NCBI RefSeq assembly: GCF_008107695.1
Contig: NZ_VIRG01000053.1
Coordinates: 310,001 to 374,000 of the forward strand
Origin: Stappia sp. BW2
GTDB taxonomy: Bacteria > Pseudomonadota > Alphaproteobacteria > Rhizobiales > Stappiaceae
Reading direction: 5' to 3'
Length of the DNA stretch: 64,000 bases
Position numbers and translations under genes: made by a program. How positions within the stretch are numbered: position 1 is the stretch's first letter; each line of letters begins with the position of its first letter. The notes under the pieces are model-generated. The model made no database searches. It was not told the origin of the DNA and saw only the letters and a program-made list of their open reading frames with translations. This document shows, in pieces, positions 8,511-11,313 of the stretch.

Positions 8511-9095
8511 TCAGTAGTACATCTCGCGTTTGCGGTAGGACCGGCCAAGCAGCCAATCCAGCGAAACGACACCCGGGCCCTTGAGCAACGGCACCAGCAG
8601 CAGGAAGATCCAGAGCAACCGGTCATCGGCGATGATCGCATAAGGCTGACCGTCAAACAGAGCCCCGATGGTCTTGGCATCGGCCCCATGACCGTAGACA
8701 TCGACATAGGTCATCACGCAGATGAAAACGATCATGCCGAGGCTGGCAAAACGAGTGAAGAGACCGACAACCACCATCACCGGCAGAATGAATTCGCCCC
8801 AGGTGCCCAGAAGAACCATGAGACCATAGGGAAAGAACGCAATCTGGCTGGTGTCGTAACTGACCTGCTCCATCATCTTCGGCAGCATCTGCGCATAAGC
8901 ACCCGCTGTCGGCGTGAAGATGTTCATGATGCTGCCGCCGATTTTCGTCATCGCCGAGTTCAGGAAGAACTGCAGCAGGATCGCGGCAAAAATGAACCGG
9001 GCGGCAAGCCCGATGAACCAGCCATCCGTCAGCCGTTCCAGAGCTCCGAACACCATCGTGTAGAGCCTGACAAAAAATCCAATCAGCACACCCAT
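8511..9095 (-). CDS. DoxX-family membrane protein of the bufferin operon
   Basis: A 194-residue integral membrane protein with four hydrophobic segments (about residues 28-45, 85-100, 107-125 and 162-175) and DoxX-type sequence such as LAARFIFAAILLQFFLNSAM and GTWGEFILPVMVVVGLFTRF. Members of this family accompany DUF692/DUF2063/DUF2282 genes as the BufD component, whose role is not settled; proposals include redox or membrane steps in maturation. A GGGGGA ribosome-binding site precedes the ATG at 9095. The gene starts 43 bases after the DUF2063 gene and is the last gene of the four-gene operon. Confidence 0.85.
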   Translation of the reverse strand: MGVLIGFFVRLYTMVFGALERLTDGWFIGLAARFIFAAILLQFFLNSAMTKIGGSIMNIFTPTAGAYAQMLPKMMEQVSYDTSQIAFFPYGLMVLLGTWGEFILPVMVVVGLFTRFASLGMIVFICVMTYVDVYGHGADAKTIGALFDGQPYAIIADDRLLWIFLLLVPLLKGPGVVSLDWLLGRSYRKREMYY

Positions 9096-9138
9096 TTAAT
9101 CCCCCTTGATCAAGCAGCATCCCTATGCCGCGTGTTTG

Positions 9139-9936
9139 TTACTCGTCCAGCAGCAGACCGGAAAAGGCACCGGCGGCAAGACAGTCCGACAGGCAATCGG
9201 ACAAGGAAAACGATTCGTCCTCTTCCTGTGCCCGGCCCGCCGCATCTGCAAGCGTATGCCCTTGCAGGAGGTCCAACGTAAACCCGGCACCGCCCGCACG
9301 CAGCAGAAAGACATTCACATCCATGTCTGGCCGGGTGATCAACACCGACTGCGGCTCTGAAAGATCGGCGGCCCCGACCTCATCAGGCTCAAACCTGTTG
9401 GCCCGTGCGATTGTCCACACCGGCCAGCGGGAAGTCACCACATGGACCGCAGGATGCGGCGTAAAACGAACATCCCCCAGCCGCTGCGGATCAATGTCCC
9501 CAAGCCTCGCCGGATCGAGAGCCGCCTCATCCGCCGCATGATAGGCTTGCAGCCAGGCCCATTCCAGCCGGGCAACGTCGCCAAGATAGGGATAGGACTG
9601 AAGCGGCGGGAAGGCGCTCAGAAAATCTGCGAATTCGGCACCATACCAGATCAGGACCGGCGATGCCGGCGGATGGGCCGTCACGAAGGCCCTTGCAAGC
9701 GCCTTGAAATAGTCGTCACCCAGCAACGTCTTCACGGCGGGAAACGTTTCACCCAGCGCTTCGCTCAGGCTGACGATCACATTGTTGCGGTAGACATTGA
9801 ACCGCTTGGGTGCCGTCTGCCCGTCCGGTCCGGTCAGTCCGTCGGGCGTGGCCGATTGCGGATCGAACAGCGCGCGTCCGAAAGAAGCGGCATCAACCTG
9901 CGGAGGGGACAGAGGGCTTCGCATTTCAGACCGCAT
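9139..9936 (-). CDS. DUF2063 (BufC/HvfC-type) partner protein of the MNIO enzyme
   Basis: The protein carries the N-terminal DUF2063 domain ([59 protein letters not shown] [20 protein letters not shown] and [17 protein letters not shown]) and a C-terminal domain resembling the RRE-like second half of BufC/MbnC proteins. Such partners bind the RiPP precursor and present it to the DUF692 enzyme. The stop of the upstream DUF692 gene (9926-9928) overlaps a start ATG at 9936 or just precedes one at 9924, so the two are translationally coupled. Both starts are plausible. The last residues contain two cysteines ([11 protein letters not shown]). Confidence 0.88.
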
Positions 9937-10822
9937 GCTTTCGTCTGGCCCCTGCGGGCTGCGCCAGTATCCGGTCTGCGGCCTGTGCCTCGGCAAGCAG
10001 AACCGGCCAGGCAGGAACATTGTTGTCCCATTCGATCAAGGTCGGCAGCGGGCCGTTTGCGCCAATAACGTCTTCATAGAGCTGCCAGACCGCCGTATCG
10101 ACCTCACGATCATGAGCGTCGATCAGAAGCGGCCGGCCGGCATCGTCCTGGTCCGGGGCATGCCCCCCAAGGTGTATCTCGCCCACGGCGGCCATCGGAA
10201 AGGCCGCCAGATAGTCCGAGGCAGATCTTTCATGGTTCGTGCAGGACACATGAACGTTGTTGATGTCGAGCAGCAAACCGCAGCCGGTCCGACGCACGAT
10301 CTCGCTCAGGAAATCCAGTTCGCTCATCGTGCTCTGCGCGAAGGCGACATAGGTCGACGGATTTTCCAGAAGCATCCGGCGCCCAACGGTTTCCTGCACT
10401 TCGTCGATATGGTCGCACACCCGGTTCAGCGTGGCCTCGTCATAGGGCACCGGCAAGAGATCGTTGAAATAGGTGGTGTCGTGGGACGACCAGGCCAGAT
10501 GTTCTGAAAACAGTCCCGGCTCGTATCGCCGGTTCAGATTCGACAAGCGCTGCAGGTGCTCCTTGTCGAGTGGCTGTTCACCGCCAATCGAGAGACCAAC
10601 ACCATGAAGGGACAAGGGATACCGCGAGCGGATGGCTTCCAGTTGCCGGTGCGGCGGTCCGCCTGCACCCATGTAGTTTTCGGCATGAACTTCAAAAAAA
10701 CCGATATCGGCACCTGTTTCCAGGATATCCGCCACATGGTCCGCCTTCAGGCCGGCCCCGGCGCGTGCCGGAACAACGGCTCCGCTACGCAGTGCCGGTT
10801 CTGATCGGGTGTCGGAAACCAT
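9926..10822 (-). CDS. DUF692 multinuclear non-heme iron oxidative enzyme (MNIO), BufB/HvfB type
   Basis: This 298-residue TIM-barrel protein belongs to DUF692, the MNIO family that includes MbnB and bufferin-maturing enzymes. Conserved metal-site segments are visible along the chain: [79 protein letters not shown] and [10 protein letters not shown]. The His, Glu and Asp residues in these strands would ligate two or three iron ions that use O2 to modify cysteines, in bufferins to thiooxazoles. It lies downstream of the DUF2282 precursor gene and overlaps the DUF2063 gene. The start at 10822 is the only reasonable ATG. Confidence 0.93.
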
Positions 10823-10850
10823 GGTACTCTCCAGATGGAAAACAGAGTGT

Positions 10851-10978
10851 CAGGCAGGCGCACTGGCTGAGGATAACTTCAGACCGCTTCGGCTGAAGCA
10901 CCATGGCTGATGGAATTGAACTAAATGTGTGCCCTATCCACCCTGTGGGCAAATGCGGGCTTTCCAATCGCCTGCCTG
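10851..10978 (-). repeat. long inverted repeat with internal hairpins between bufA and bufB
   Basis: The 191-base gap between the precursor and enzyme genes contains a perfect 10-bp inverted repeat, CAGGCAGGCG at 10851-10860 and CGCCTGCCTG at 10969-10978. Inside it is a second hairpin, CTTCAG/CTGAAG at 10877-10898 with an additional CCG/CGG helix, and a weaker GCCC/GGGC pairing near 10930-10950. In RNA this could fold into a closed multi-hairpin element, able to stabilise the precursor mRNA, attenuate reading into bufB, or both. Confidence 0.55.
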
Positions 10979-11013
10979 AACAAGTTGCCGCGGATGCGGC
11001 CGATCAAGCCTTA

Positions 11014-11313
11014 TCAGGCTTCGGGAAGGTCGCGCTTGAGTTCCGTAAGGGAGCCGTGACGGCCACCGGGAACATCCATCGTCGTGCACGTGCCTTTCGG
11101 GACCAGTGTCCAGGCGTTACCCTGATAGTCGATCGTCGAAGTGCCTGCGCAGGTCGTGCCAGGGCCGGCCTTGCAGTCGTTTTGCCCCTTCAGGGACACG
11201 CCATAGCATTTTTCCTTGGCCTGGGCATTGGCAGGCACAGTTGACGACAGACCCGCAACGGCGGTCGCAACCGCACCGGCAACAAAAGCTGCAGACATGG
11301 CCTTATGCTTCAT
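11014..11313 (-). CDS. bufferin-type RiPP precursor (DUF2282)
   Basis: The 99-residue product has a signal peptide (about residues 1-31, [20 protein letters not shown] then QAKEK) and a small mature domain with four cysteines at positions 36, 47, 55 and 76 in the family pattern [38 protein letters not shown]. This is DUF2282, the BufA1 precursor of bufferins: exported peptides that bind copper after the DUF692 enzyme converts central cysteines to thiooxazoles. Unusually for a RiPP, the signal peptide serves as the leader. The ATG at 11313 follows GAGGAG. It is the first gene of the operon and separated from bufB by a structured spacer. Confidence 0.93.

Follow-up and report, generated by a model that had tools for sequence, protein, structure and literature searches.

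We describe here a bufferin biosynthetic locus in a stretch of 64,000 nucleotides (nt) from a Roseibium species (Stappia sp. BW2 in RefSeq; contig NZ_VIRG01000053.1, positions 310,001 to 374,000), referred to below as the window. In the bufferins, a multinuclear iron oxygenase (MNIO) and its partner protein turn two central Cys residues of a precursor into thiooxazoles, the outer two Cys are joined in a disulphide, and the product, once exported by Sec, binds periplasmic copper through the Cys-derived thiooxazoles (PMC12452194). A sequence-only reading of the window had proposed an operon of this kind, and all four of its open reading frames (ORFs) are present on the minus strand within 8511..11313, where that reading had placed them:

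11014..11313, minus strand: bufA, Buf1 (DUF2282) bufferin precursor of 99 amino acids (aa), PF10048, with Cys36, Cys47, Cys55 and Cys76; the sole DUF2282 match found in the genome
11224..11313, minus strand: probable Sec signal peptide of BufA, residues 1-30, with ANA preceding and QAKEKC following the cleavage site, read by eye and from an alignment
9926..10822, minus strand: bufB, MNIO (DUF692) bufferin maturase of 298 aa, PF05114 and NF050167; the sole PF05114 match found in the genome
9139..10020, minus strand: bufC, DUF2063 plus RRE-type partner (PME-type 1) of at most 293 aa, PF09836 and predicted fold
8511..9095, minus strand: doxX, DoxX-family membrane protein of 194 aa, PF07681

The MNIO gene follows the precursor gene after 191 nt and is overlapped by the DUF2063 gene, and doxX comes 43 nt after bufC. 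Two starts are candidates for bufC: the longest ORF, from 10020, overlaps bufB by 95 nt, and an internal ATG at 9936 gives an overlap of 11 nt. We confirm that the locus is a complete Buf1-type bufferin biosynthetic cluster, and it is a further example of the published family, ordinary for that family, intact and long kept.

The identity of the four proteins is carried by profile searches and, for BufC, by a predicted fold. BufA scores 88.1 bits against the Pfam DUF2282 model (PF10048, cut-off 22.4) and keeps all four Cys; against the NCBIfam BufA2 model it scores 24.4 bits, short of the cut-off of 60, and it is therefore, with its four Cys, placed in Buf1 and not in Buf2. Its N-terminus resembles a Sec signal with a cleavage site between ANA and QA, judged by eye rather than by a predictor. 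The AlphaFold model of BufA was poor (predicted local distance difference test, pLDDT, 54.4) and was discarded, and a BufA profile search against the sequences of solved structures gave three matches, all at chance level. BufB reaches 353.9 bits against Pfam MbnB_TglH_ChrH (PF05114, cut-off 25) and 388.8 bits against the NCBIfam equivalog MNIO_BufB (NF050167, cut-off 310), and it aligns with the solved DUF692 protein 3bww (E 5.8e-38), the TglH and MbnB chains matching more weakly. Eleven BufB residues are invariant across 14 sequences (H73, E107, H108, E153, D186, N189, H217, D235, H237, E264 and D266), and a subset of these we take, from the family, to be the iron ligands; they are treated here as candidate metal ligands. 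BufC scores 93.1 bits against Pfam DUF2063 (PF09836, cut-off 27.2), and a profile search with it retrieved nothing from among the solved-structure sequences. The AlphaFold model of BufC, on the other hand, which covers 286 residues from 9999 down and was built from 16 sequences (mean pLDDT 84.8, the first 31 residues being of low confidence), retrieved with Foldseek three solved structures at E <= 0.001, namely TglI (8hi7, 8hci) and NGO1945 (3dee), with template modelling (TM) scores of 0.45-0.60 and root mean square deviations of 5.9-7.8. For the DUF2063-RRE 'PME-type 1' partner, NGO1945 serves as the reference structure (PMC12452194). DoxX is the closest to its threshold, at 27.0 bits against PF07681 (cut-off 23.6). 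The comparison with profiles that had been proposed as a check thus places all four proteins above the Pfam cut-offs, and BufB above the bufferin-maturase cut-off as well; together with the independent support from the BufC fold, these matches bear out the bufferin operon of the sequence-only reading. Its guess that members of this lineage are annotated as hypothetical is unlikely to hold for bufB at least, the equivalog model naming this protein 'MNIO family bufferin maturase'.

The cluster is present almost throughout the genus and in a constant setting. Genome-wide profile searches of the window genome gave one DUF2282 match and one MNIO match. DUF2282 was found in 51 of 61 surveyed genomes, and within the genus in 36 of 37, the window's own counted; the sole genus genome lacking a match, that of G023, is assembled in 680 contigs and has a contamination of 5%. 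Across the order, 191 of 397 sampled genomes have DUF2282, and in the same family none of the 4 g28 genomes and not the one g29 genome does, among the genomes listed. The named hits nearest to BufA are from Roseibium and Labrenzia, the closest being R. aggregatum IAM 12614 at 96% identity, and all four Cys are present in each of the 36 genus BufA proteins read, including that of the window. Divergent from bufA lies a flanking gene outside the system:

11862..16658, plus strand: gltB, glutamate synthase large subunit, adjoining bufA divergently in 35/35 fetched genus loci

We take the name gltB from its sequence; gltD follows at 16750-18180 (TIGR01317, 638.9 bits). The order gltB, bufA, bufB, bufC, doxX and a lyase gene, with gltB alone of these in the opposite direction, is identical in all 35 loci fetched from other genus genomes, and the arrangement is therefore not due to chance; hsp20, oriented like gltB, is also present in 34 of them, the remaining one being a short contig. 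Over these 35 loci, the best tblastn segments show 68-95% identity to the window for BufB and 48-87% for BufC. Such constancy of gene order favours vertical descent over recent transfer, and it is gene order, not a comparison with the species tree, on which this view is based. Among the 30 best loci of a class-wide search, 9 have a gltB match in their flanks; the gltB neighbourhood evidently predates the genus.

Among known systems, we take bufferin 1 to be the product of CC3254 in Caulobacter. The operon CC3254-CC3257 has the same gene set and order, DUF2282-DUF692-DUF2063-DoxX (PMC3511200). Caulobacter, however, has two such operons (CC3254-CC3257 and CC2907-CC2905) under the extracytoplasmic function (ECF) sigma-F/NrsF pair (PMC3511200), whereas the window has one operon, beside gltB, with a different conserved upstream element, in a genome where no NrsF scores above the cut-off. 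The Buf2 bufferins (Buf_6/12Cys, BufA2) share an exported precursor, an MNIO and a DUF2063 partner, but their precursors carry six or twelve Cys (PMC12452194), in contrast to four in the window BufA, which also falls short of the BufA2 model. In the group of oxazolin, fontiphorin, gonophorin and bulbicupramide, MNIO-PME1 pairs install 5-thiooxazoles and the products bind Cu (PMC13097082; preprint PMC12668002; PMC12538549); this group differs in its repeat-type precursors (EGKCG or di-Cys), and the window proteins match the HvfB and HvfC models below cut-off. TglHI and MbnBC likewise combine an MNIO with a partner protein, and it is TglI that the BufC fold matches, but they act on other precursors, carry out 3-thia-Glu or oxazolone-thioamide chemistry and use a precursor that lacks a Sec signal (PMC12452194). 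Within Buf1, a DoxX gene is common and not obligatory, and a sigma factor with NrsF occurs in a subset of clusters.

Gene content and order, family membership, the conservation of the Cys and of the candidate metal ligands, and the fold of the partner are observed directly in our data, and since every core gene is present and conserved we take the published bufferin mechanism as the most likely one, with a probability of roughly 0.87: BufBC would convert Cys47 and Cys55 to thiooxazoles, and the exported BufA would bind periplasmic copper and lower its toxicity. The chemistry and the export, like the binding of copper and the protection from it, are here projected from published relatives. The counterparts of the bufferin Cys in the window BufA are Cys47/Cys55 for the central pair and Cys36/Cys76 for the outer pair. 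BufA would be synthesised with its Sec signal and held by the RRE part of BufC, and BufB, as a multinuclear iron oxygenase, would carry out a four-electron oxidation of each of Cys47 and Cys55 to a thiooxazole (-4 Da per Cys); in fontiphorin, 4 Da are lost per Cys motif (PMC13097082). BufA would then be exported through Sec, its signal cut after ANA, and a disulphide would link Cys36 to Cys76; the mature product, about 69 residues long, would bind copper in the periplasm, thereby lowering copper toxicity, with DoxX as a presumed accessory membrane protein. Copper binding and better growth under copper stress are both documented for the characterised bufferins (PMC12452194).

Several points weigh against this interpretation. 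First of all, none of the 45 window proteins scanned was recognisable as a copper protein or a known regulator of copper genes. Second, two such operons in Caulobacter respond to chromate and cadmium via sigma-F (PMC3511200), and the inducer may therefore be a metal other than copper. Third, in Microbulbifer, another marine genus, a related MNIO/DUF2063 cluster is obligately conserved, yet MmrA-C were not detected after copper addition (PMC12538549). Fourth, no NrsF anti-sigma scores above cut-off, so the sigma-F/NrsF circuit of Caulobacter may be missing. Finally, the NCBIfam models nearest to BufC and DoxX, namely HvfC and HvfX, were built for the HvfC/HvfX types and are matched below cut-off (21.7 bits for DoxX against the HvfX cut-off of 80). 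One alternative is that the locus is a true MNIO/Buf1 system that mainly serves either against a stress other than excess copper, be it chromate, cadmium, oxidative or sulphur stress, or in handling copper during normal growth. It draws on the response of the Caulobacter paralogues to dichromate and cadmium (PMC3511200), on the Microbulbifer proteins that went undetected after copper addition (PMC12538549), on the near-universal retention in the genus, which fits a routine role, and on the copper genes recognised in none of the scanned window proteins. A non-copper role is, however, at odds with the characterised bufferins, which bind copper and aid growth under copper stress (PMC12452194), and we judge this alternative unlikely, if worth keeping in view.

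A further proposal concerns the extent of the operon, since the next gene on the same strand lies close behind doxX:

7409..8467, minus strand: possible fifth operon gene, a pyridoxal phosphate (PLP)-dependent beta-eliminating lyase, threonine-aldolase-like, PF01212 at 174.5 bits

Against the threonine aldolase model NF007825 it scores 45.9 bits, far below the cut-off of 312. As a functional fifth member, this lyase would carry out a further modification or supply a sulphur or amino-acid intermediate. In 35/35 fetched genus loci it shares the strand of doxX and is the first of the searched-for genes behind it. The two genes lie 43 nt apart in the window; over 36 genus loci the spacing is 42-48 nt in 27, 63-178 nt in another 8 and 2633 nt in one (G021). 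The lyase also stands beside the cluster, though before bufA, in one distant genome (L085). Outside the genus, however, it accompanies only 6 of 19 DUF2282 loci, some of these on short contigs, and the distance in G021 also counts against membership. Since gltB and hsp20 are equally syntenic, plain inheritance of gene order accounts for the position of the lyase, and the published core consists of the precursor, MNIO, DUF2063 and DoxX genes (PMC12452194). We thus regard its membership as improbable.

Between the peptide gene and the enzyme genes of the Buf1 cluster, the transcript has the potential to fold:

10850..10979, minus strand: bufA-bufB stem, arms 10968-10979 and 10850-10861, identified by fold z-score and arm pairing

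The window arms, TCAGGCAGGCG and CGCCTGCCTGA, still pair, with 106 nt between them, and the whole bufA-bufB gap folds with a z-score of -3.15, only 1 of 200 shuffles being as good. Elsewhere in the genus the gap measures 47-188 nt. A short-loop hairpin lies in the gap of 28 of 36 genus genomes (equalled by at most 5 of 100 shuffles); the short-loop test failed in the other 8, namely the window, G002 and six more. In G002, a close relative in the same genus, 10 of the 12 arm positions pair across 103 nt. Consensus arms were located in 33 of the 36 genus genomes, nine of these with at least 7 mismatches of 24, and at least 10 of the 12 arm pairs form in 23 of the 33. Standard pairs fill 324 of 396 cells, compared with 304 on average and 318 at most when the 3' arms were shuffled 1000 times between genomes; the arm search used complementary arms, and the pair counts are therefore biased toward pairing. 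An intrinsic terminator was considered and rejected: the window stem is absent from the terminator scan list, and few stems elsewhere precede a T-run (that of G013 is an example). An RNA-stabilising or processing role is tentatively preferred, and a stem in this position could raise the ratio of peptide to enzyme, which suggests how one operon could yield much peptide and little enzyme. That the arms lie about 100 nt apart in the window genome and in G002, when most of the genus has a short loop, could be taken to mean that the cluster is a decayed or silent remnant, but with all ORFs intact, profile matches above cut-off, residues and gene order conserved across the genus and stem arms that still pair, this is barely credible.

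Upstream of bufA, the intergenic region facing gltB holds three features that differ in the gene they appear to serve:

11406..11429, minus strand: conserved element GTMACNNNCGTTTGATTTCCYATT, 24 nt, about 100 nt upstream of bufA, candidate bufA regulatory site
11512..11541, plus strand: promoter-like site TTGGCA-18-TATAAT in the gltB direction, 11/12 consensus bases, in the conserved block of the genus alignment
11607..11623, no strand assigned: palindrome GGACAG-N5-CTGTCC, at about -310 from bufA, assigned to gltB and not to the bufferin operon

The core of the element, TTTGATTTCCNATT, is exact in 33 of 36 genus loci, carries one mismatch in one and has no match in two; outside the genus, the element (at most 2 mismatches) was found in 3 of 19 loci. 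The long pattern occurs genome-wide once exactly and once with 3 mismatches, and a reversed-pattern control gave 0. The palindrome is exact in 36/36 genus loci and, outside the genus, was found within 800 nt before bufA (at most 2 mismatches) in 8 of the 10 loci that have gltB close by, compared with 0 of the 9 that do not. One of the two misses falls at L085, where the lyase intervenes between gltB and bufA and the region upstream of gltB lay outside the scanned stretch; the other, L078, is a genuine miss at the sensitivity used. The promoter scan gave 2 promoter-like sites against a mean of 1.4 in shuffles. Because the palindrome follows gltB and the promoter-like site points there, the conserved upstream block of about 300 nt is assigned to gltB and was rejected as a bufferin regulatory region. 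The palindrome, which is kept upstream of gltB across families, is a candidate regulator site in its own right. The Caulobacter counterparts of the operon are sigma-F-dependent and have the motif GTAACC-N16-CGAA (PMC3511200). By eye, the first half of this motif resembles the element (GTAAC/GTCAC) and the second half does not, and no sigma factor is claimed. No NrsF was found above the cut-off of 26.8 in the genome, where two weak matches scored 19.3 and 18.4 bits, and sigma-F itself was not searched for; in the controls for this search, 3 of 14 genomes (E. coli, B. subtilis and Caulobacter) gave matches, one of them over the cut-off. With no NrsF above cut-off and a different upstream element, control may thus differ from that in Caulobacter, and the Roseibium operon may use another regulator.

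Beyond the genus, low-scoring matches in the order led to seven DUF2282 proteins that keep the first and last Cys and lack the two central, modifiable ones:

L075/L122 (G047), L118/L086 (G044), L119 (G154), L120 (G093), L121 (G125), L123 (G081) and L124 (G264): two-Cys loci

They come from four families (tool numbering) of the same order as the window genome. In these proteins NDC is replaced by DDG or NDG, and the TTCAG stretch by IPGM, VPGM or VPGS; the G264 protein has two extra Cys inside its signal peptide. The window BufA is, unlike these, the ordinary four-Cys form. A bufB match was found in 0 of the 7 loci, within flanks of up to 1.5 kb that are shorter at contig ends (the G044 contig ends about 0.8 kb after the two-Cys gene), and in 5 of 7 the gene adjoins gltB, the position held by bufABC in the window. 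Two of the genomes, G093 (97% complete) and G125 (99% complete; 1250 contigs and 5% contamination), gave no PF05114 and no PF09836 match anywhere in the genome; the other five have MNIO genes on other contigs. Within the one genus that comprises G047, G093, G125 and G154, the ratio of nonsynonymous to synonymous substitution rates (dN/dS, Nei-Gojobori) is 0.034-0.079 over six pairs, one with a dS of 1.14, and the two-Cys gene has therefore probably been retained there by selection. In a tree of selected sequences, the seven proteins form one clade, with a weak support of 0.61. As only part of the DUF2282 matches in the 191 positive genomes of the order was read, the two-Cys set is a lower bound; across the class, 82 genomes match a two-Cys profile, and the best 30 loci, which were read, are all four-Cys. 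Buf1 precursors have four conserved Cys, and 21 of 4072 genomes have DUF2282 and lack an MNIO (PMC12452194, Table 3); the available portion of that paper holds no description of a two-Cys form. No two-Cys DUF2282 protein was found in the literature titles and abstracts searched, where absence is not proof and subscription papers are mostly uncovered. We put forward tentatively, at somewhat less than even odds, that the Buf1 (DUF2282) fold also serves a second, copper-independent purpose in which its chemistry plays no part. If so, and if the two-Cys protein is made, copper chelation would be a separable layer on the DUF2282 scaffold, and an exported protein needing no modification would be either the ancestor or a descendant of the bufferins.

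Other precursor variants and window features were seen along the way. The DUF2282 precursors at L069, L135, L139, L151 and L152 have six Cys, the usual four and two in the C-terminal tail. At L154/L163 (G230 contig 28, same order), the DUF2282 match is split over two frames and adjoins a stop-free MNIO match; the precursor gene there may be broken or misassembled. Within the window, a 649-aa ORF at 54425-56374 fuses DUF1007 and NicO nickel-transport domains, and an 849-aa open frame at 60036-62585, which has no Pfam match at E 0.001 and overlaps an aminotransferase frame (62363-63556), may be partly non-coding.

The locus extends a published family into a genus in which the cluster is close to a core trait. 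Roseibium is a culturable marine genus, and thus a fair place to ask what role bufferins have in seawater bacteria, and the two-Cys relatives constitute a natural mutant series for testing the function of DUF2282 proteins without thiooxazoles.

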